Shown: piece by piece, positions 29,349 through 64,000 of the stretch
How positions within the stretch are numbered: the stretch's first letter is position 1
How the letters are laid out: each line of letters opens with the position of its first letter
Assembly (NCBI RefSeq): GCF_002934265.1
Contig: NZ_PTIX01000002.1
Location: 248,001 to 312,000, forward strand
Reading direction: 5' to 3'
Source: Actinokineospora auranticolor
GTDB lineage: Bacteria; Actinomycetota; Actinomycetes; Mycobacteriales; Pseudonocardiaceae
Length of the DNA stretch: 64,000 nt
The notes under the pieces: generated by a model
Database searches by the model: none
The model's input: only the letters and a program-made list of their open reading frames with translations
Told to the model about the DNA's origin: nothing
Position numbers and translations under genes: made by a program

Positions 29349-30206
29349 CTACCGGTGCTTGCGGGTGGGTTTGGCGTGGTTGACCAGGGTGGCCAGGAGG
29401 GTGACCAATCCGCTTTCGGGGCGGGCCAGTGAGCGCGGCGGACCGTCGCCGTCGGTGTCGCCGCTGTTGACCCAGTAGACGTGCCCGTCGCCGACGACCC
29501 GGCGGGTGACCAGCGGCACCTCGGGGTCGCCGTCCCAGCAGTAGAGGAAGTCGACGTCGCGGTGCCAGGTGCCGACCACGACCTCGTTGTCGCTGAGGTC
29601 GAGGGACTCGGGCAGGTCGGCCAGCAGGTCGGCGTACTCGCAGGCGCGCGGACCGGAGTCCACCCGGGTGTAGCGGATGGGGGCGTCGGACCGCTCGAAC
29701 TTGTCGAGGCTGCACCCGGCGAGCTTCTGCAGCCGCTCGTTGCGGCTGCGGCGCCAGATGACGTCGTGGCCCAGGACCAGGCAGCCGCCACCGCGCACGT
29801 AGTGGGCCAGGCGCTTCTGCAGCCGCTCGCGTTCGCGGGGGCGGGAGCTGAGCTGGGTGACGTCGGTGATGAGCAGCACGATCCCCGCGATGGGCCGGGA
29901 GAACGGCCACCGGGCGAGGTCGCCACCGTCGCGCACCACGGACACCTTGGTGCGCGTGCCCGCCTCGGTCATCTCGGCCTGCAGGCGCTTGGCCAGGGCG
30001 TTGCTGGTGTGGAGTTCGTCGTCGCAGTCGGTGTAGAGCAGGACGGTGTCGGCGCGCCAGAGCCTGCGGGTGCGGACCCGCCCGGCCCGGCCGCCGCGGA
30101 TGAGGCGGGTGTAGACGTCGAAGCCGAACACCCGGGCGATGAAGACGATGAAGACGGCAACGAGGTTGACCCCGACCTCGTCGACGTAATTGGCGAGTTC
30201 GGACAC
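29349..30206 (-). CDS. Membrane-anchored ThuA/glutamine-amidotransferase-like protein
   Basis: A 285-residue protein with one N-terminal helix (VNLVAVFIVFIARVFGF) and a cytoplasmic alpha/beta domain. Segments such as TVLLYTDCDDELHTSNALAKRL, GIVLLITDVTQL, YVRGGGCLVLGHDVIWRRSRNERLQKLAGC and HVYWVNSGDTDGDGPPRS resemble a ThuA-like class I amidotransferase fold, but no catalytic triad is clear. GTG at 30206 has a GGGGGAG site. The gene starts 7 bp after the GDPD stop, so they share a transcript. Function unknown. Confidence 0.7.
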   Translation of the reverse strand: MSELANYVDEVGVNLVAVFIVFIARVFGFDVYTRLIRGGRAGRVRTRRLWRADTVLLYTDCDDELHTSNALAKRLQAEMTEAGTRTKVSVVRDGGDLARWPFSRPIAGIVLLITDVTQLSSRPRERERLQKRLAHYVRGGGCLVLGHDVIWRRSRNERLQKLAGCSLDKFERSDAPIRYTRVDSGPRACEYADLLADLPESLDLSDNEVVVGTWHRDVDFLYCWDGDPEVPLVTRRVVGDGHVYWVNSGDTDGDGPPRSLARPESGLVTLLATLVNHAKPTRKHR

Positions 30207-30213
30207 GCTCCCC

Positions 30214-30966
30214 CTAGGGCTGGATGTGTTCGAAGATCGGCGCCGCCCGCTGCGCCCGCGCGACGGCCAGGTGTTCGGGTGTGCGCACCGTCCACACCAA
30301 CAGCGGCACCCGCAGCACCCACCGCCAGAACGCGACAACGGGATTGGGCAACGCCCCGACCTCGTAGGCCAGGAAATCGGGCCGGGAAACCGCGTTGAGC
30401 ACCATGCCGCGCAACAAAACCCGGCGCGACCACGGCATCCGCTCCCCCCGGAACGACCCGGACAACTGCCCCCGCACCACAGCCGGGGCATGCGTCTTCA
30501 GCCACAGCACGATACGTGGATCGAAGGACTGGACGGCCACCTCACCGCCGTACCGACCGATTTCCGCCACAACGCCTGCCCCGATCCGCCCCACCGGATT
30601 CCCCGCCTTCACCTCCACCAAGACGGGGACCCGCCCAGCCACCAACTCGAAAACCTCCCGCAACAACGGAACCCGCTCCCCAGTCCCCCCCAACCGCAAC
30701 TCCGCGAGCTCCCCCACCCCAACATCCCGAACGACCACATCCCGCCCCGTCATCCGCAACGCGTTGGCGTCGTGGAAGACGACCACCTGCCCATCCCCGG
30801 TCAGGTGCACATCCAGCTCGATCGCGTATCCCTTGGCCGCAGCCGCCTCGAACGCGGCCAAGCTGTTCTCCGGTACCCCGTCGCCGTGCAGTCCTCGGTG
30901 CGCGACCACACCGGATGTCAACCACTGACCTCGCACCCCGACCTCCAACCACGTCGAGAAGACCAC
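30214..30966 (-). CDS. Glycerophosphodiester phosphodiesterase family protein
   Basis: A 250-residue TIM-barrel enzyme that hydrolyses glycerophosphodiesters to glycerol-3-phosphate. AHRGLHGDGVPENSLAAFEAA carries the catalytic His, Arg and Glu, IELDVHLTGDG the metal Glu/Asp, and VFHDANALRMTG the second His. It has no signal peptide, so it should be cytoplasmic. Codon third positions are G-rich and C-poor, unlike most genes here (see the strand-skew finding). Confidence 0.9.
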   Translation of the reverse strand: MVFSTWLEVGVRGQWLTSGVVAHRGLHGDGVPENSLAAFEAAAAKGYAIELDVHLTGDGQVVVFHDANALRMTGRDVVVRDVGVGELAELRLGGTGERVPLLREVFELVAGRVPVLVEVKAGNPVGRIGAGVVAEIGRYGGEVAVQSFDPRIVLWLKTHAPAVVRGQLSGSFRGERMPWSRRVLLRGMVLNAVSRPDFLAYEVGALPNPVVAFWRWVLRVPLLVWTVRTPEHLAVARAQRAAPIFEHIQP

Positions 30967-31015
30967 CTGGTCTCCGTCTTACCCCCGTCACCCTGACCGA
31001 GGAACGGAACCCCGC

Positions 31016-31798
31016 ATGTCCCTCTCCCACGACACCTACGCCAACGAGATCCTGGCCCAAACCAAGGCCCTGACCGCAACCATCGCCGACGCCGACCTCA
31101 CCACCCCGGTCCCTTCCTGCCCAGGCTGGACCCTCAACCACCTGCTCCGCCACATCGGCCACGGCCACCGCTGGGCCGCCGAGATCATCGACACCCGCGC
31201 CACCACCCCACCCCCCGACACCGCCCTACGCGACCTGACCCACCACACCAACGAAACCCCGGATTCCCTCACCCCCTGGCTACAAGAAGGCGCCACCCTC
31301 CTCTCCACCGCCCTCACAACCACCCCCACCGCCCAGATCTGGACTCCCCTGGTCCCCATCAGTTCCCCCGCCGACGCCCTGTTCTTCTACGCCCGCCGCT
31401 TCACCCACGAAACCCTCATCCACCGCGCAGACGCCACCCTCGCCCTAGGCAAGCACTTCACCGCCGCCCCCGAAGTAACCCAAGACGCCCTGGAGGAATG
31501 GCTGGTCCTAACCACCCTCCCCCAACTCTTCACCATCCACCCCGAACGCAAAGCACTCCTAGCCCCCAACCGCACCCTCCACTTGCAAACCCCCACCACC
31601 ACCTACGAAATCAACTTCACCGGCCCCACCCTCACCCACACCACCAACCCCACAACAAGCACCCCCACAGCCACCATCACGGCCCCCGCCCTCGACCTGC
31701 TCCTCCACCTCTACCAACGCTCCACCACCACCTCCGTCACCCAATCCGGCGACCAAACCTTCCTAACAACCTGGAAAACCCACTCCACCTTCGGCTAA
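31016..31798 (+). CDS. Maleylpyruvate-isomerase N-terminal (DinB-like) family protein
   Basis: A 260-residue protein in the mycothiol-dependent DinB-like superfamily. The N-terminal helix bundle has PVPSCPGWTLNHLLRHIGHGHRWAAEI and the second His pair is in RRFTHETLIHRADATLA. The C-terminal domain (after about 175) resembles the MDMPI C-terminal region. Thr is extremely frequent because codons in this stretch are C-rich and G-poor. ATG at 31016 has GAGGAACGGAAC upstream. Substrate unknown. Confidence 0.85.
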   Translation: MSLSHDTYANEILAQTKALTATIADADLTTPVPSCPGWTLNHLLRHIGHGHRWAAEIIDTRATTPPPDTALRDLTHHTNETPDSLTPWLQEGATLLSTALTTTPTAQIWTPLVPISSPADALFFYARRFTHETLIHRADATLALGKHFTAAPEVTQDALEEWLVLTTLPQLFTIHPERKALLAPNRTLHLQTPTTTYEINFTGPTLTHTTNPTTSTPTATITAPALDLLLHLYQRSTTTSVTQSGDQTFLTTWKTHSTFG

Positions 31799-31844
31799 CC
31801 CCACCCCACCAAACCCATCTCTCCACCACTCACAAAAAACAACA

Positions 31845-31873
31845 AGGCGGGTGCTCAACACAAGCACCCGCCT
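31845..31873 (+). terminator. Hairpin terminator after the MDMPI-like gene
   Basis: AGGCGGGTGCT (31845-31855) pairs perfectly with AGCACCCGCCT (31863-31873) around a seven-base loop. It lies 46 bp past the stop and is preceded by an A-rich stretch (CAAAAAACAACA). Confidence 0.8.
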
Positions 31874-32140
31874 ACCTACCAACGGTTTACGCTCCCCACG
31901 AACATGATCTGCGACGTATGGCGCGAATCGTGCCGTGGGCGCCCAGGGCCAGGGTGCCCCCAGTACCAGTCAGGTCGGCCACCTACCAACACTCGCCGGC
32001 CTGGCGGGCCCATTTCCGTCGATGGTGCGCCCGGGCGGTCGGCGAACGCAGAGGCCCGCTCTGAGGCAGGCGAACGCGCAAGCACCGTCGAAGAAGCCCC
32101 CGGGGAGCTGCTTCCACTGCGCTGCCGTACGGCAAGGTCA

Positions 32141-32340
32141 GACCTGCTGAGGTCTTACTCAAACCTTGCCCCACCCGACGCAACCACTACCGGGGTCCGG
32201 GGTCGCACCCCATAAAGAACAACAGGCGATCGACCGTGGACCTGCCAGGGCCTTACTCAAGCCCGGTCCCACCCAACGCAACCATGGTCGGGGGTTCGGG
32301 GGCTCGCCCCCGAGCGGGGTTTGGGGGTTGCACCCCCAAT
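32141..32340. repeat. Two tandem copies of the tRNA-flank repeat
   Basis: Two related blocks start at 32141 and 32239 (98 bp apart). Both contain GACCTGCxxxGxxCTTACTCAA, then CCCACCCxACGCAACCA, then a G-rich hairpin. The second block carries the longer hairpin part (32286-32338), which matches the element after tRNA-Arg at 56672-56723 when read in the tRNA direction. The 597 bp between 31798 and the tRNA otherwise shows no supportable gene. Confidence 0.65.
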
Positions 32341-32360
32341 GTGATCGCGGAACGCAAATG

Positions 32361-32379
32361 GTCCGCGCCCTTCGCGGAC
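32361..32379 (-). terminator. Hairpin just downstream of tRNA-Ala
   Basis: GTCCGCG (32361-32367) pairs with CGCGGAC (32373-32379) around CCCTT. It starts 17 nt after the tRNA 3' end on the tRNA strand. It probably marks the end of the tRNA transcript or a processing hairpin. Confidence 0.6.
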
Positions 32380-32395
32380 ACGGACCACCTATGCG

Positions 32396-32468
32396 TGGAG
32401 CTGAGGGGAATCGAACCCCTGACCTTCTCGATGCGAACGAGACGCGCTACCAACTGCGCTACAGCCCC
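32396..32468 (-). tRNA. tRNA-Ala (anticodon CGC)
   Basis: A 73-nt cloverleaf on the minus strand. The 7-bp acceptor pairs GGGGCTG with CAGCTCC and contains the G3-U70 pair that identifies tRNA-Ala. The anticodon loop is TTCGCAT (anticodon CGC) and the T arm is AGGGG-TTCGATT-CCCCT. The discriminator is A; CCA is not encoded. Confidence 0.97.
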
Positions 32469-32526
32469 TTGGTTGTTGCTCGGAGAGCTTAGCAGTGCCC
32501 TCCGAGTGGGCTGCAAACCGGGGTCC

Positions 32527-56723: not shown

Positions 56724-56875
56724 GGTGCGTGCGTGAGTGGTGGCGTGTGTGGGCGCGGGTGCGGTGTGGGTGCGGGTGTGGGGTGTGGGTGGGTTGGAAG
56801 GTCGTTGTATCAGTGGTCCCGCTGCCGGTTCGGGGGGCGAGGGGATCATTTGGGCGGTTTTCGCCATATTTGGGG

Positions 56876-57472
56876 TCAGGGTCGTGGTCGGTCGCGGAAG
56901 GCCCGGTAGTAGGCGGTGATGACCAGGACTAGGAGGAGTGCGTAGGCGGTGGCCATGGTGTAGAACAGGGTTCCGGGGCGGACGTAGGTCACCAGCAGGT
57001 GTGTCGTGTATAGGCCGACCAGGACCCAGGGGACTACGTAGACCACGGCGATGATGATTCGGTAGGGCCACGGCGCCAGTGTCGGGTTCACTATGTACTC
57101 GCCCGCTTTTGAGCCGACCTGGTTTTGTTTCTTCGGGTCCATGCCGGTGTGGCTGAACAGGGCCTTCTCGACGATGAGGGCTGAGGATCCACGTCTGCCT
57201 GCGAGTGCGACGAGCACGGTGCTGTAGAGCATGCCGACCCACAGCGGGATGGGGACGAGGCCCGCTGCCACGCGGGGTAGTTGTGGGACCTTGTCGAGGA
57301 AGGCTACCGACGCGGCCGCGTAGGCCAGGACGGCGCCGAGGAGGGCGATGTTGGTGTTGAGGAGGGAGACGTTCTCCGACCGCTCCGCCTGGTACATCGA
57401 GCCGAGGGCGGCGACCTCGATGGGGGCGCCCGCCTGGGTGTTCGGGAGCGGGACGTTGTTGCGTCTCTTCAT
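56876..57472 (-). CDS. Four-helix membrane protein of a two-component operon
   Basis: A 198-residue protein with a polar N-terminus, a helix pair (LLNTNIALLGAVLAYAAASVAFL and VAAGLVPIPLWVGMLYSTVLVALAG), a cytoplasmic loop (HTGMDPKKQNQVGSKAGEYIVNP) and a second pair (IIIAVVYVVPWVLVGLYTTHLLV and TMATAYALLLVLVITAYYRAF). It begins 11 bp after the sensor-kinase stop, so it is the last gene of that operon. It has no family I recognise; it could be a sensing partner of the kinase or a target of the system. Confidence 0.8.
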   Translation of the reverse strand: MKRRNNVPLPNTQAGAPIEVAALGSMYQAERSENVSLLNTNIALLGAVLAYAAASVAFLDKVPQLPRVAAGLVPIPLWVGMLYSTVLVALAGRRGSSALIVEKALFSHTGMDPKKQNQVGSKAGEYIVNPTLAPWPYRIIIAVVYVVPWVLVGLYTTHLLVTYVRPGTLFYTMATAYALLLVLVITAYYRAFRDRPRP

Positions 57473-57483
57473 GGCGCTCTCCT

Positions 57484-58635
57484 TTAAGCAGAAGGGTTGG
57501 CAGGTAGGAGGATCTCTACGACTGTGCCCCGTCCGGGGCCGCTGTCGATGGACGACGTCGCCCCTACCTCGGCCAGCCGGGCGGTCATGGAGCGGCGCAA
57601 CCCGGTGTCGTCCGGGATGGTTGCCGGGTCGAAGCCGCACCCGTGGTCGGTGACGGTCACCGTCACCTCACCGTCCGGTTCACCGGTGGCCACGACCCAG
57701 GCGCGTGTGGTGCGCGCGTGTTTGGCCACGTTGTTCAGCGCCTCGGTGACGGCCGCCGATAGGGCGCTGACCGTCGCGGCTGCCATCTCGGGAGGCAGGC
57801 CGTCCGAGCTGTAGTGCACTTCGAGGGCGTGTGCGCCTTGGAGGTAGACGACTTCGGCCAGTCTTGAGTCCAAAGTGGTCCCTTCCGCACCGGTTCCACC
57901 GTCCACTATGGCGCGCAGGAACCTGGCCTCGCGCGCGCACTTGGCGCGGACCGCCTCCGGTAGGGCGGGCTGACTCGCCAGCAGGGCAAGGGTGTTGAGG
58001 ACGTTGTCGTGCAACACCTCGTACTGGCGGACCCGCTCCTCCGCGCGGGCCGTGGCCTCACGGGCCCGTAGCGCGCCCTCCGCTTCGGCGTCCGCCTGCC
58101 GGGCGGTGCCCAGCAGCTTGGCCGCGACCAGTCCGCCAGCGAAGGTGAACACCACCAACTGACCCGTGACGCCGAGCAGCGTGCCAGCCTGGTCTAGACC
58201 GTGGCCGCGCAGCCCGGTCGCCAGATACGCCCCGCCCAGCGCCACCACGGCGCTCGCGCCCCAGCGGTACCCGCCGTAGACGTGGGCGAGCACGGCAACC
58301 CCGGTCGCGGGAGACGGCGTCCAGTTCTGCCAGGTGGACACCGCCTCCGCCGGGAGGACGAGACCGACGAAGATCTCCGCGGCCGTCATCACCGCGATCG
58401 CGACGGTGATCTGGACCCGGCCGACCGACGGGCGCTTGATCACCCATCGGAGGAGTCCCGCCGCCCACAACAGGTACAGCAGGTAGGACACGACCACCGG
58501 TACCGGCGCCCGTGAGGACTCCGAACCCGGCCACAGCAGCAACACCCCCCACGGCACGACTTGCGCGAACCACAGCAGCGCGAGCGCCCGCATCAGCCAG
58601 GCCCGTACTTGTTCTTCCACTCCACCCTTGCGCAT
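57484..58635 (-). CDS. Multi-pass sensor histidine kinase (HisKA_3-like)
   Basis: A 383-residue kinase with about five or six membrane helices in the first ~175 residues, a coiled-coil (LGTARQADAEAEGALRAREATARAEERVRQYEV), the His region YEVLHDNVLNTLALLASQ and a DesK-type ATPase domain (TEALNNVAKHARTTRAWV; VTVTDHGCGFDP; GRGTVVEILLP). The His box is shorter than the usual RIARELHD form but keeps His-Asp. It lies 65 bp after the response regulator and is probably its partner. Confidence 0.88.
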   Translation of the reverse strand: MRKGGVEEQVRAWLMRALALLWFAQVVPWGVLLLWPGSESSRAPVPVVVSYLLYLLWAAGLLRWVIKRPSVGRVQITVAIAVMTAAEIFVGLVLPAEAVSTWQNWTPSPATGVAVLAHVYGGYRWGASAVVALGGAYLATGLRGHGLDQAGTLLGVTGQLVVFTFAGGLVAAKLLGTARQADAEAEGALRAREATARAEERVRQYEVLHDNVLNTLALLASQPALPEAVRAKCAREARFLRAIVDGGTGAEGTTLDSRLAEVVYLQGAHALEVHYSSDGLPPEMAAATVSALSAAVTEALNNVAKHARTTRAWVVATGEPDGEVTVTVTDHGCGFDPATIPDDTGLRRSMTARLAEVGATSSIDSGPGRGTVVEILLPANPSA

Positions 58636-58700
58636 GCGGGAAACGATGCCCGATCGAGCGCTCTCCCGGTGACGGGTGTTTCCCCCTCATTTCCGCCTCG

Positions 58701-59366
58701 TCAGAGTTCGGCGCCGTCCTCGCGCAGGCGGTCGCGCAGTTGCGCGGCGGTGTTGTAGGGCCGGTCGGCGTCCTGGTACTTGGCCTTGACCCGTTCCAAG
58801 TAGCCTTCGACAGTCTTGGGCGTGACGTTCATCCGCTTCGCGATCTCCTTCACCTGCAGACCCCGACCACGCAGCATTGCCGCCTCCGTTTGCCGCTCCG
58901 ACAGGTCCGGGCTGCCAGGACCGCGATCACGGCTGATCGCGAACGCCAGTTCCTGGCCGAGCACATAGCGGTTCGCGGCGATGTCGGCCACCGCCTGGAC
59001 CAGGCCGACCAGGTCGCCCTTGGGGTGGAAGTCGACCGCGCCCGCGCGGATGGCGTCGAGCTTGACGTCGCGGCTGGTGTGCGCGGAGAGCAGCAACACC
59101 GCCGTCCCGTACTGGACGAGGCGGGAGATGTTGTCGACGAACCTGGTGCTGTCGTCGAGTCTGAGATCGAGCAGCACCAGGTCGTCGGCGGGTTCGAGGG
59201 CCAGGTACTCGGCCACCGTGCTGGCCTTGTGCTCGATGCGCATACCCGGCGCGTTGGCCGCGAACCAGCCCTCGGTGGTCGCCAACAGCATCCGGTCGTT
59301 GTCGATGAGCCCGAGCCGGATCAGCCCACCGCCCGCCGATCCGCGGGGCTCGATTCCCGTAGTCAT
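58701..59366 (-). CDS. LuxR-type response regulator, first gene of the operon
   Basis: A 221-residue regulator with a divergent receiver (LGLIDNDRMLLATTEGWF; phospho-Asp in LVLLDLRLDDSTRF; Lys in DFHPKGDLVG) and a C-terminal helix-turn-helix (LSERQTEAAMLRGRGLQVKEIAKRMNVTPKTVEGYLERVKAKYQ). It starts at ATG 59366. The ~410 bp to its right are shared with the divergent Crp-like operon, so it may control that operon too (inference). Confidence 0.88.
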   Translation of the reverse strand: MTTGIEPRGSAGGGLIRLGLIDNDRMLLATTEGWFAANAPGMRIEHKASTVAEYLALEPADDLVLLDLRLDDSTRFVDNISRLVQYGTAVLLLSAHTSRDVKLDAIRAGAVDFHPKGDLVGLVQAVADIAANRYVLGQELAFAISRDRGPGSPDLSERQTEAAMLRGRGLQVKEIAKRMNVTPKTVEGYLERVKAKYQDADRPYNTAAQLRDRLREDGAEL

Positions 59367-59779: not shown

Positions 59780-60499
59780 TTGACCGGCAGACCTCAGCCT
59801 CCAGGGTCGTGGCTGCGTGGAACATTTCTCGCCCGCCTCGATACCGATACGCGTGGTGAACTCCTGCGGCTGGGCACCTCGCGCACGATCTCGGCGGGAG
59901 CCTCCTTCATCACCCAAGGCATGCACGGGTCCGATGTGTTCCTGCTGCGCGCGCCGACCGGGCCGCGGGCGGCGTTTGCAAAGGTCAGCGGCGTGATGGC
60001 CAACGGGTCGGAGACCTTGCTGGCGATCCGCGTGGCGGGTGATGTTGTCGGCGAGGGTGCGATGTTCCACGCCGACGGCACGCGCTCGGCAACGGTGACC
60101 GCCTGCGCCGACATCGCGGTGCAGTCGATCGCCCGGGACACGTTCCTGGGGTTTCTGAGCACGTACCCGAAGGCGTATTTCGCCTTGTGCGCTCTGATCA
60201 GCGAATGTCGCGACTTCGCGAACCGGCGCAGGCTCGACTTCGCCGCCTACAGCGTCAAGGCTCGGTTGGCGCGGGTGATCTTCGAACTACTCACCGTGCA
60301 CGGCGTACCCCACGGTCATGGCAAGAAGTTGGGGATCGAGCTGTCGCAAGAGGAACTTGGCAAGCTCGTCGGCGCCAAGCCGGACTCGGCAAGGGACGCT
60401 ATGCGCAGGCTCCGCGCAGAAGGGCTGGTTCAGGTGCGGTACCGCGGGGTATCCGCGCCGGACCTCGACGCGTTACTCGCCGCGGCTGAAATGGATTGA
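59780..60499 (+). CDS. Crp/Fnr-family regulator
   Basis: A 239-residue protein with an N-terminal cyclic-nucleotide-binding-like beta-roll (ELLRLGTSRTISAGASFITQGMHGSDVFLLR, VAGDVVGEGAMFHADGTRSATVTA), a dimer helix and a C-terminal winged helix (LGIELSQEELGKLVGAKPDSARDAMRRLRAEGLVQVR). The phosphate-binding cassette GEGAMF lacks the usual GExA/L-RAA residues, so cAMP binding is doubtful. TTG at 59780 has AGGAG eight bases before it; an in-frame extension to 59654 is possible. It leads the operon with the cyclase-like, P-loop and SPFH-like genes. Confidence 0.87.
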   Translation: MTGRPQPPGSWLRGTFLARLDTDTRGELLRLGTSRTISAGASFITQGMHGSDVFLLRAPTGPRAAFAKVSGVMANGSETLLAIRVAGDVVGEGAMFHADGTRSATVTACADIAVQSIARDTFLGFLSTYPKAYFALCALISECRDFANRRRLDFAAYSVKARLARVIFELLTVHGVPHGHGKKLGIELSQEELGKLVGAKPDSARDAMRRLRAEGLVQVRYRGVSAPDLDALLAAAEMD

Positions 60500-60593
60500 T
60501 CATCACAACCGGGATTTCTGCGAAGTTCGCCTTCTCCCTGTCGGACAGACTCCCGACGACACCACCTCCGACATGACGTGAAGGACTCGTACC

Positions 60594-61325
60594 TTGAACG
60601 AATTCGGACGCCACGGCCTGATCGACTCCGATTCCGAGAGCTACAGCTCCCGTACCGACGTCGACCAGCACGAGTTGCAGCAGGTGCGGGTAGACGTCTG
60701 CGAGCAGGCGGCGGGCGACGCCGGGCTGGACCGTTCCGGCTGGGACATCCAGCAGGGCGGGGACGGCGAACTCGCCGTCCTGCCGCGCAACCAGCTGATG
60801 ACCTCGGTGATCGACGAGTTGCCGGAGTCGTTGTGCGACGCGCTCACCACGCACAACAGCACGGCGCGCCCGGCGATGCGGCTGCGCATGCGCATGGCGA
60901 TGCACGAGGGGATGGTCCGGCCCGCGGCGGGCGGGTTCGCGGGCACCGGCGTGGTCACCGTGTCCAGGATGGTCGCCAGTTCGGTGGCGCGGCAAGCGCT
61001 CATCGCGTGCCCCGAGGCGAACCTCGTCGTGCTGCTGTCGACCACGCTCTACAACGAGTACGTCCGGCAGGGGCACACCGCGATTCCCGCGGAGAGGTTC
61101 CGCAAGGTCGCGGTGAGCGTGAAGAAATTCAACGAAGCCGCGTGGCTGTACGTGCCCCGCTACGACGTCCACTCGTTGAACCTGGACGACGCACCGCCTC
61201 CCGCTGATCGGCCCGCGGCGAACGCGTCCGTGGCGAACCAGCACGCCACTACCATCACGAACGTCCAGGGGAACATCACCGGCGACAGGCACGTGTTCGG
61301 CGTGTCGTACCAGAACAACCGATGA
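60594..61325 (+). CDS. Cyclase-homology-domain protein with C-terminal signalling motif
   Basis: A 243-residue protein. Residues about 5-190 keep the outline of a class III nucleotidyl cyclase domain: a DSDSESYSSR start, GGDGELAVLP in the place of the GDG loop, MRLRMRMAMHEGMV, and a final KKFNEAAWLYVP. The metal-binding Asp residues and substrate residues are not clearly retained, so it may bind but not turn over nucleotides. After a Pro-rich linker, the C-terminus reads TITNVQGNITGDRHVFGVSY (221-239), a Gly/Asn/Val motif like bacterial amyloid signalling motifs. TTG start with AAGGA upstream; its stop overlaps the next ATG. Confidence 0.75.
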   Translation: MNEFGRHGLIDSDSESYSSRTDVDQHELQQVRVDVCEQAAGDAGLDRSGWDIQQGGDGELAVLPRNQLMTSVIDELPESLCDALTTHNSTARPAMRLRMRMAMHEGMVRPAAGGFAGTGVVTVSRMVASSVARQALIACPEANLVVLLSTTLYNEYVRQGHTAIPAERFRKVAVSVKKFNEAAWLYVPRYDVHSLNLDDAPPPADRPAANASVANQHATTITNVQGNITGDRHVFGVSYQNNR

Positions 61326-63379
61326 GTGAAGAGGCCCAACCCGAGACCCGGTCGGACGGCGAGGACAAGGGTGGCGAGCCGGCGAGGGACAAGGCCGCCA
61401 ACTCGTACGACATCGGAATGGTCAACGACGTCCGGCAGAGCTTCAACGGTCGGATCGAAACCGCGTACATCGGTGTGCACTCCTCGGACGGCGCAGGTGA
61501 GCGGGCGCCCAAGGTGACCACTTCCACCGGTCTCGTCGACGACAGCGACATCGAGGCACTGGGCCGGTTCGTGCAGCCGGACTGCTTCGACGACGGCTTG
61601 TCCCAGCTCGCCCGCGATCAGATCCTGGTCCTGTGCGGCCCGGCCGACACCGGCAAGCGCTCGTCCGCCTTGTCGTTGTTGCGCGAGGTCACCAACGAGA
61701 CGCTATACATGTTGTCACCACACGTATCCGTCACGGAGCTGGCCGAGTACGAGTACGAAGCGGGCTGCGGTTACGTCGTGTTCGACCGGGTGGTCGACCG
61801 GGGTGCCAAGGAGTCGGACTTCGACTGGCGGCTCGCCCGCGACCAGGTGGTGAAGAACGGCTGCTACCTCGTCGTCACGCAGCCGCACGAGGTGACCGAG
61901 CGCTTCGGGCACACCACCTGGCAGGCACCCGCCGCGGAGAAGGTGCTGCGCGCGTACTGGGACCAGGAGTGGTCGCCGGACCAGGCGGCGGTGCTCTCGG
62001 AGGTGCTGTGCACGGTCGACCGCGTGCGGGACCTGGTCGGACTGGCCCAGCAGCTCGCCGGTGGCAGCACGTTGGAGGACGCGCTCAACCACCTCGACTC
62101 GCGGGTGCGCGCGGTCGTGGAGAACTGGTTCGACGAGCACACCGATGACCACGCGCGGATCTCGGAGATCACCACGCTGGCGTTCACCGTCGGCGTCGAC
62201 GAGCGCACGTTCGAAGCCGCGCACCTGCGGTTCAAGCGCTTGCTGGACAAGTACATGCCGCCCGCCGAGCCGAAGGCCGCCGAGGGTGAGGCCCAGGAGG
62301 GCGCAGCCGAAGCGAAGCGCTTCTACAGCACGCGGGCGTTGTGGCGGGAGAACGACCTCGTCGCCACCGTGGAGATCCGCACGGAGCTCGGTACGCGCAA
62401 CGCGATGGTCTTCGCCAAGTCCGGGTACCACCGGCACGTGCTGGCGCAGCTCTGGCGGCGGATGGGCGTGGCGTTCTGGGACGCCGTGAAGGACTGGCTG
62501 GACGAGATCGTGCTCCGCACACAGGGCTACGAGTTCTCCGCCGCGGGTGGGTTGGCCGAACTCGGCGCGGTCGCGATCGGCGAGGTGGTGCCGACCCTGG
62601 ACCACTGGGCGCGGGGCAACCGCGGCACCGCCGGTCAGCGCGCCGCCGTCTACACCCTCTACCTGATGGCACAGGACGACTCGCTCGCCCCGACCGCGCT
62701 GAAGATCGCCACCGAGTGGATCACCCGCGGCGAGCCGACGCACCGGTGGGTGGGCACCATGGCGTTCATCGGCGAACTCGGCGTTCGCTACCCCCACGAC
62801 GCGCGCAGGCGGCTGTGGCAGGTGTGCATGCAGTCGCACACCGTCGACGGTGATGTCGAGAAGGTCTTCGGTGAGCTGTTCAGCACCCTGGTGCGCTCGT
62901 CCGGGAACGCGCACCTGGTGCTGAACTTCCTGGTCGAGCGGGTGAAGCGGTTCATCCGCCCGGGCGCGCGGCCCAAAACGCGCACGATCACCGCGCGGGT
63001 GGTGATCGCGGTGATCGCGTCGAGGGACGAGAACACCAAGCGCTCCACCGTGCTCGCACACCTCACCGAACGGCCGGAGCACACCGATCTGATCGCCGAG
63101 CTGCTGGCGGGCGTGCTGATGCACCGCCCGACCAGGGAGCAGGCCCTGCGGGCACTGCACATGGTGCTCGAAGACCTGGCTCGCGACGCGGAAACCGCGG
63201 GCACCCGCGCGCACGCGCTCGGCGAGGCACTGCGCGCCCACCTGCCGCGCGACGAACACGGTGCGCTGGAAGAGGACCTCCGGACCGTGGCCGCGCGGCG
63301 GACCAAGGGCATCGACATCAAATCCCTGATCAACGCGATCCTCGACGCCCTGCAGGGCCGCGGCGACAACGACGAGTAG
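61322..63379 (+). CDS. P-loop NTPase with long helical region (conflict-system type)
   Basis: A 685-residue protein. The N-terminus holds DVRQSFNGRIETAYIGVHSS (about 36-55), similar in spacing to the motif at the end of the preceding protein. The P-loop follows (VLCGPADTGKRSSALSLL, Walker A about 106-113 with Arg after the Lys) and a Walker B-like GYVVFDRVVD (150-159). The rest, about 220-685, is helical with HEAT/ARM-like features (RFYSTRALWREN; TNDLIAELLAGVLMHRPTREQALRALHMV-like) and no other enzyme motif. It looks like a STAND-class switch with a sensor region rather than a transport ATPase. Its ATG overlaps the upstream stop (ATGA). Confidence 0.75.
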   Translation: MSEEAQPETRSDGEDKGGEPARDKAANSYDIGMVNDVRQSFNGRIETAYIGVHSSDGAGERAPKVTTSTGLVDDSDIEALGRFVQPDCFDDGLSQLARDQILVLCGPADTGKRSSALSLLREVTNETLYMLSPHVSVTELAEYEYEAGCGYVVFDRVVDRGAKESDFDWRLARDQVVKNGCYLVVTQPHEVTERFGHTTWQAPAAEKVLRAYWDQEWSPDQAAVLSEVLCTVDRVRDLVGLAQQLAGGSTLEDALNHLDSRVRAVVENWFDEHTDDHARISEITTLAFTVGVDERTFEAAHLRFKRLLDKYMPPAEPKAAEGEAQEGAAEAKRFYSTRALWRENDLVATVEIRTELGTRNAMVFAKSGYHRHVLAQLWRRMGVAFWDAVKDWLDEIVLRTQGYEFSAAGGLAELGAVAIGEVVPTLDHWARGNRGTAGQRAAVYTLYLMAQDDSLAPTALKIATEWITRGEPTHRWVGTMAFIGELGVRYPHDARRRLWQVCMQSHTVDGDVEKVFGELFSTLVRSSGNAHLVLNFLVERVKRFIRPGARPKTRTITARVVIAVIASRDENTKRSTVLAHLTERPEHTDLIAELLAGVLMHRPTREQALRALHMVLEDLARDAETAGTRAHALGEALRAHLPRDEHGALEEDLRTVAARRTKGIDIKSLINAILDALQGRGDNDE

Positions 63380-63392
63380 AGCGGAACACCTG

Positions 63393-64000
63393 ATGGACAA
63401 GCAAACCTACCCGGTGGTCAACGAGCGGGCGCTCGCCCCCGTCTCGCCGAAGCGGCTCTTCGGCAAGGCGCCCCGCAGGTCGAGCACCGAGGTTCCGGTC
63501 CCGATGGTGGGGCAGTGCCTGGTCTACCGCACCCACGGCCAGTACACACTGGACACCGCCAACCTGCCACTGGACTCGGCTACCGTCGTCGAGGCCGCGC
63601 ATGTATCCCTTGTGGACATTACACCGGACACCGAGGTGCCGGTCGAGGTTCCGCTGCCGTCGAAGGACGGCTCGTTCTTCACCATGAGGGTCACGTTCCT
63701 GTGCACCGTCGAGGACCCGGTCGAGGTCGTCCGCGCCGGTGGGAGCAACGCGGCCCACATGCTGACCGGCTACCTGCGCGGTCACCAGCGGAACTTCGAG
63801 ATCGGCCTGAACTACGCGATCGACCACATCAACGACGTCCGGCTCAAGCTGAGCGCACAGGTGCGCGCCTACGCCACCGTGAGCCCGCCCGGCCTGCAGG
63901 GCATGCGGACGAGTCTCGCGAGCGTCGAGGTCCGCACGCCCGACGAGGTCGTCGAGTTCCAGGGCAAGATGCGCGCCACGCAACGGGACCACGCGGTGCG
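63393..64000 (+). CDS. SPFH/stomatin-like protein (5' part, cut by window end)
   Basis: The first ~202 residues of a protein that starts 13 bp after the P-loop gene. After a basic N-terminus, VEVPLPSKDGSFFTMRVTFLCTVEDPVEVVRAGG and HMLTGYLRGHQRNFEIGL fit the beta-rich start of an SPFH (band 7) domain, and LQGMRTSLASVEVRTPDEVVEFQGKMRATQ fits its helical continuation. No membrane helix is seen in this part. It belongs to the same operon as the Crp, cyclase-like and P-loop genes. The C-terminal effector part, if any, is outside the window. Confidence 0.65.
   Translation, partial: MDKQTYPVVNERALAPVSPKRLFGKAPRRSSTEVPVPMVGQCLVYRTHGQYTLDTANLPLDSATVVEAAHVSLVDITPDTEVPVEVPLPSKDGSFFTMRVTFLCTVEDPVEVVRAGGSNAAHMLTGYLRGHQRNFEIGLNYAIDHINDVRLKLSAQVRAYATVSPPGLQGMRTSLASVEVRTPDEVVEFQGKMRATQRDHAV

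Follow-up and report, generated by a model that had tools for sequence, protein, structure and literature searches.

A recurrent actinobacterial operon with matched terminal tags on an NLR-like P-loop protein and a cyclase-fold protein: a candidate route from receptor to transcription

At the end of a 64,000-nucleotide stretch of the 8.4 Mb genome of Actinokineospora auranticolor (G000:C2:248001-312000; hereafter the window) lies the greater part of an operon encoding, in order, a Crp/Fnr-family regulator, a class III nucleotidyl-cyclase-fold protein (here CYC), an NLR-like P-loop/HEAT protein (here PLP), an SPFH-like coiled-coil protein and a DUF4407 protein. Across the family, CYC and PLP carry matched short tags at facing ends, and the regulator accompanies CYC. 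We give roughly even credence to the reading that the operon serves NLR-type signalling and would act through a cyclic nucleotide read by its own transcription factor. With somewhat less assurance, we propose that it may belong to an actinobacterial family of NLR-like receptors in which a matching prion-like tag pair, peculiar to each locus, would link the receptor to one of three exchangeable outputs: a class III cyclase whose product acts on a dedicated Crp regulator, a SARP that acts directly, or a TIR enzyme. The features in the window are as follows.

59780..60499, plus strand: Crp/Fnr-family regulator, 239 amino acids from a TTG start, with a cyclic nucleoside monophosphate (cNMP)-binding domain and a Crp-type helix-turn-helix (HTH), from Pfam
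60506..60529, plus strand: weak candidate for a conserved cis-element just 3' of the Crp stop codon, from a motif search of 36 Crp-CYC intergenic regions
60594..61325, plus strand: CYC, class III nucleotidyl-cyclase-fold protein with a C-terminal tag, 243 amino acids
61248..61304, plus strand: C-terminal tag of CYC, residues 219-237, TTITNVQGNITGDRHVFGV, from the matched-tag analysis of the family
61322..63379, plus strand: PLP, NLR-like, with an AAA/STAND-type P-loop domain and HEAT-like helical repeats, 685 amino acids, from a structure model and weak profiles
61436..61477, plus strand: N-terminal tag of PLP, residues 39-52, QSFNGRIETAYIGV, positioned like the N-terminal tags in homologous proteins
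61637..61660, plus strand: Walker A motif of PLP, GPADTGKR, residues 106-113, with the Lys kept
63393..64000, plus strand, running on to 64868 beyond the window: SPFH-like coiled-coil protein (gene 4), Band_7, 491 amino acids

That the five genes form one operon is supported by their arrangement. The four close or overlapping plus-strand genes reported in an earlier note on this DNA are present at the spacing claimed there, with 94 bp between the first and second, a 4 bp overlap of the second and third and 13 bp between the third and fourth, and an AGGAG-like ribosome-binding site lies just before the TTG at 59780. Continuing the contig past position 64000, as that note had proposed, completed gene 4, which stops at 64868 in continued window numbering (491 amino acids in total), and added a fifth gene, for the DUF4407 protein, at 64865-66202 on the plus strand in the same numbering (L002:6865-8202), overlapping gene 4 by 4 bp. 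The next likely gene downstream is on the opposite strand. The fifth gene, the matched tags and the TIR and SARP variants described below go beyond that first reading.

The same gene order was found in other genera, a recurrence among actinomycetes that the earlier note had proposed to check, and because it recurs there the association is more than chance; chance co-occurrence of the genes was rejected on this ground. Among 200 genomes of the order, close relatives of PLP (E 1e-70 or better) occurred in five, its own genome included, and matches at E up to 1e-3 in ten; the neighbourhoods of the relatives showed identical gene order. When named genomes were searched with the SPFH-like protein, eight loci came up, two in Saccharothrix, three in Amycolatopsis and others in Actinokineospora, Nonomuraea and Actinomadura, three of which (L075, L076 and L080) were loci already in our set. 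In the class, 57 of 394 genomes had a match to a 20-row PLP profile with E no higher than 1e-10. The earlier note had also proposed to look for variable occurrence, and presence is indeed sporadic: within the genus gene 4 was matched in 3 of 16 genomes. The counts that follow use 62 distinct loci, a non-random sample of which 22 came from searches seeded with the window proteins and 40 from class-wide PLP profile matches, the other class-wide matches, most of them weaker, being omitted and five near-duplicates (L074, L075, L076, L077 and L080) removed before counting; all were found by searches inside the actinobacterial phylum or of named actinobacteria. Thirteen of the 62 contain all five genes and 17 contain a DUF4407 gene, and an additional five-gene locus in another genome of the genus (G918) stands outside these counts.

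The C-terminus of CYC and the N-terminus of its NLR-like neighbour PLP bear similar short motifs, which are matched across the family. The tags diverge locus by locus and sit in low-confidence regions of the structure models. The tag shuffles ignore relatedness, for which the nearest-relative comparison alone allows. A first count over loci had the P-loop misplaced in some rows, with the heads of those proteins trimmed; a later count used longer heads and left out five unassigned loci. One Crp-CYC-PLP locus (L068) gave no tag match, and it is also outside the 62-locus tag set through a filter on the start of the profile match.

The gene directly before PLP occupies an exchangeable slot, being cyclase-like in 46 of the 62 loci, TIR in six, SARP in four, unassigned in five and absent in one at a contig end. 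Pfam found TIR_2 in all five TIR proteins and BTAD in all four SARP proteins tested. Some of the unassigned cases are errors of gene choice, made by codon-position G+C content, and L144 has Crp and a cyclase-like open reading frame (ORF) by profile. A Crp gene is present in 37 of the 46 cyclase-type loci, in none of the ten TIR or SARP loci and in one of the five unassigned loci (Fisher p 2.6e-6 for cyclase versus TIR/SARP loci, ignoring relatedness), and Crp therefore tracks the cyclase rather than the receptor. The SARP variants put one tagged regulator in the place of Crp plus cyclase, which supports a transcriptional output. The A. auranticolor genome itself has two more P-loop loci, L022 (G000:C7:264001-281000) and L027 (G000:C1:376001-394000), one with a TIR gene upstream and the other with a SARP (BTAD) gene whose product seems, by eye, cyclase-like in its C-terminal part.

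CYC has the class III nucleotidyl cyclase fold. In enzymes of this class two Asp residues bind metal, and the Arg and Asn of a VN..A.R motif have transition-state roles. Both metal-binding Asp are present in all 46 family members and the transition-state Arg (R125) in 45; since both metal Asp are retained, the statement in the earlier note that this protein keeps only the outline of a nucleotidyl cyclase does not hold. A Pfam scan of CYC recognised no cyclase and no PADLOC model matched it at E up to 1; among the matches listed for the CYC model none had the title of a Pycsar cyclase, which excludes nothing. Further cyclase-like copies in the same genome (L058, L059, L060, L061 and L062) had no P-loop match in the flanks that were fetched; two of them lie in open frames of 800 and 1137 amino acids and two have a TGA inside the match.

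The regulator scored above the curated Pfam cut-offs for both cNMP_binding (1.8e-8) and HTH_Crp_2 (3.4e-10) and can be aligned to solved Crp/Fnr proteins. In the residue numbering of the longer ORF P0001, G133, E134, R144, S145 and A146 are conserved in 38, 35, 36, 29 and 35 of 38 homologues, respectively. Cassette position 135 is Gly (3 of 38 homologues, Met or Leu being commoner), and there is one additional residue at 140, where 31 of 38 homologues have a gap. The altered ligand cassette of the earlier note thus reduces to deviations at minor positions, with the phosphate-binding cassette retaining its E, R, S and A. PADLOC PycTIR and effector models match the regulator through its cNMP domain, and it carries a Crp HTH. 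The candidate cis-element listed above reached a motif log-likelihood of 156 versus 80-86 in four shuffled sets, a value inflated by related sequences, and a general dyad test on the Crp-CYC intergenic regions gave p 0.049, and a control stretch gave 0.76. Six of 36 loci, where 0.07 would be expected, have a Crp-type box, TGTG-N8-CACA, in the gap separating the Crp gene from the cyclase gene; in five of the six it is one shared sequence, and the gap in the window's own locus lacks it. A Crp operator common to all loci was considered and not established, as no exact dyad was common to more than 4 of 36 loci and shuffles gave up to 3.

The structure model of PLP (pLDDT 81.7) comprises a P-loop AAA/STAND-like domain and a HEAT-like superhelix, and its structure matches include SAMD9, an AVAST5 filament, Orc1/Cdc6-like ATPases and HEAT/ARM proteins. 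By profile, nSTAND3 was matched at E up to 1 in 15 of 20 PLP homologues (best 4.3e-5) and HEAT_2 in 5 of 20; the window PLP itself scored E 0.039 with nSTAND3, below the Pfam cut-off. At the Walker A Lys position the aligned rows from the 62 loci have Arg more often (R 34, K 22), and the window protein has Lys. Sequence searches at E up to 1 returned no solved relative of PLP and no PADLOC model. The PLP gene is interrupted by a TAA in Amycolatopsis azurea (L017/L075) and split across two frames in Nonomuraea sp. SBT364 (L078).

For gene 4, Band_7 was matched at 9.7e-6 on the first 202 amino acids, over the cut-off, with no full-length match, and one of six homologues matched at 0.0016. No solved relative was found by sequence under 0.09, and PADLOC gave no match at E up to 1 for the first 202 amino acids and none at 0.001 for the full length. 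The gene right after PLP is SPFH-like in 29 of 62 loci with the first profile and in 57 of 62 after profile iteration. A model built from the 29 recovered 18 more at E under 1e-3 and none of 3,000 decoys, so that 10 of the 57 assignments rest on the iteration alone; of the five loci lacking such a gene directly after PLP, three have an SPFH-like ORF elsewhere in the locus. The fifth gene matched Pfam DUF4407 at 1.5e-67, over the cut-off, with hydrophobic segments around residues 88-149 and 329-362, and in PADLOC gave only a weak PbeC match (0.00068). Some SPFH-like partners have long extra C-termini, Pro/Gln-rich in L125 and with a vWA-like stretch, seen by eye, in L065.

From these features we infer a mechanism in which PLP would be the receptor, its HEAT-like part sensing a trigger and the protein then oligomerising. 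The N-terminal tag of PLP could nucleate or capture the matching C-terminal tag of CYC, and the resulting clustering would unite CYC domains; class III cyclases act as dimers, and clustering would therefore switch the enzyme on. The cyclic nucleotide so made would bind the Crp-like regulator and alter transcription of the operon and perhaps of other genes, with the SPFH-like and DUF4407 proteins possibly anchoring the assembly at the membrane or acting there. Two observations weigh against this proposal: the window's own tag pair taken alone is non-significant (score 23, shuffle p 0.47), and the Asn of the VN..A.R motif is replaced by Val (V121) in the window CYC and is Asn in only 14 of 46 family members.

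The missing Asn is what one would expect if CYC were a non-catalytic nucleotide-binding adaptor that the tags join to PLP, with the Crp-like protein only autoregulating the operon in response to cellular cyclic AMP. Conflict systems are described as including inactive cyclase domains (PMC7159879), and the failure of Pfam to see a cyclase in CYC fits as well, but the invariance of both metal Asp and the near-invariance of R125 would be unexpected in a dead enzyme, Ma1120 (an adenylyl cyclase by its title, solved with pyrophosphate) has Ala at the place of that Asn in the CYC alignment, and Crp accompanied CYC but neither TIR nor SARP; we therefore consider the adaptor improbable. A system of abortive infection or cell death, in which membrane or NAD effectors would be supplied by the SPFH-like and DUF4407 proteins, or by TIR where the variants have it, and Crp would merely control expression, is conceivable though doubtful. 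It would account for the TIR proteins in the CYC slot (6 of 62 loci, five of them Pfam-tested), the prevalence of the SPFH-like gene after PLP, the hydrophobic segments of DUF4407, the antiphage STAND protein AVAST5 among the PLP structure matches and the conflict-type TNT and GT4-conflict neighbours described below; however, genes 2 and 3 have no PADLOC match, DUF4407 occurs in only 17 of 62 loci and the presence of SARP in that slot speaks for transcription.

We likewise think it unlikely that the operon, instead of being a conflict system, regulates development or envelope stress in mycelial actinomycetes. Crp and SARP regulators often govern development and secondary metabolism, SPFH-like and DUF4407 proteins would suit a sensor at the membrane, and all loci are actinobacterial, as were the searches; yet sporadic presence, both in the class and in the genus, and the locus-by-locus divergence of the tags fit conflict or self/non-self recognition better.

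Among known systems, Pycsar consists of a PycC cyclase and a cNMP-sensing effector with transmembrane (TM) or TIR parts. As there, a cyclase-type gene here adjoins the gene for a protein with a cNMP-binding domain, but that protein is a DNA-binding Crp rather than a TIR/TM effector, and an NLR-like receptor is included; with no PADLOC match for CYC, and with the PycTIR match of gene 1 confined to the cNMP domain of a protein that has a Crp HTH, membership of Pycsar was rejected. AVAST type 5 (Avs5), an antiphage STAND protein solved as a filament, is a structure match of PLP, but a weak one (E about 2e-5, TM-scores 0.3 or less), and the would-be effector is here a separate gene. A close parallel in arrangement is with the bacterial amyloid signalling (BASS) NLR pairs of Dyrka et al. 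(2020), adjacent genes with a motif at the effector C-terminus and the NLR N-terminus and with TIR among the effectors (PMC7889193); adjacency, tag placement, TIR effectors, filamentous bacteria and several motif families are shared (PMC7889193, PMC8086366, PMC12261475). Here, in contrast, a class III cyclase-fold protein or a SARP takes the place of the effector, and Crp, SPFH-like and, in part of the loci, DUF4407 genes are added; the main texts of all three papers contain the word 'cyclase' 0 times.

The earlier note had likened the genes to NTP-dependent conflict systems, a likeness that the parts bear out. Kaur et al. describe conflict systems with cyclases, Band-7 proteins and homotypic coupling (PMC7159879, PMC8195603), and the MoxR-vWA ternary and effector-associated domain (EAD)-coupled systems described there share with our loci STAND NTPases, a cNMP cyclase, TIR, Band-7, homotypic coupling of neighbours and sometimes linked Crp-like regulators. 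Pfam found no MoxR AAA+ or vWA gene among the five, for which reason we rejected membership of the MoxR-vWA ternary systems; VMAP is likewise absent from the five, and the couplers here are short tags, not small globular EADs. No description of the five-gene combination was found in the literature searched, but coverage of that literature was incomplete and novelty is not thereby proven.

Upstream of the operon, on the other strand, are two genes, one resembling a LuxR-type response regulator and the other a histidine kinase. Downstream, opposite-strand neighbours at L002:8235-15388 (window numbering 66235-73388) encode a 781-amino-acid protein in which TNT and SseB domains occur together and, farther along, two proteins with 'GT4-conflict' glycosyltransferase domains, possibly another conflict locus next door. 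The next genes scanned contained no housekeeping pathway, one of the findings that the earlier note said would count against it, nor, as its other such case supposed, are the genes found solely on their own; a housekeeping role was rejected as unsupported, since the genes that follow run the other way and include two conflict-type kinds. A genus member with no gene 4 match (G922) retains the two-component genes (window 56871-59337, 2.5 kb, 87.7% identity), and a comparison of 50 kb of our contig with 28 kb of G922 gave no other blastn match at 1e-10, an only partial proof of an empty island site. Because G922 shares only the two-component block, the surroundings are a plastic, mosaic region. 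Elsewhere in the window, positions 30001-32000 have a GC skew of -0.342, an AT skew of 0.262 and a GC content of 0.664, and tandem repeats sought at 29500-32500 to explain the skew were not found.

The known or presumed outputs of bacterial NLR-like proteins are mostly death effectors. If the signalling reading is true, these loci would provide bacteria with a route from immune receptor to gene expression with a diffusible second messenger between, and thereby a branch of innate-type immunity that is inducible and works through transcription. DUF4407 would then gain a likely function, as would a so far unrecognised group of class III cyclase-like proteins. The dozens of locus-specific tag pairs, with their three interchangeable outputs, make the signal specificity of paired amyloid-like tags directly testable.
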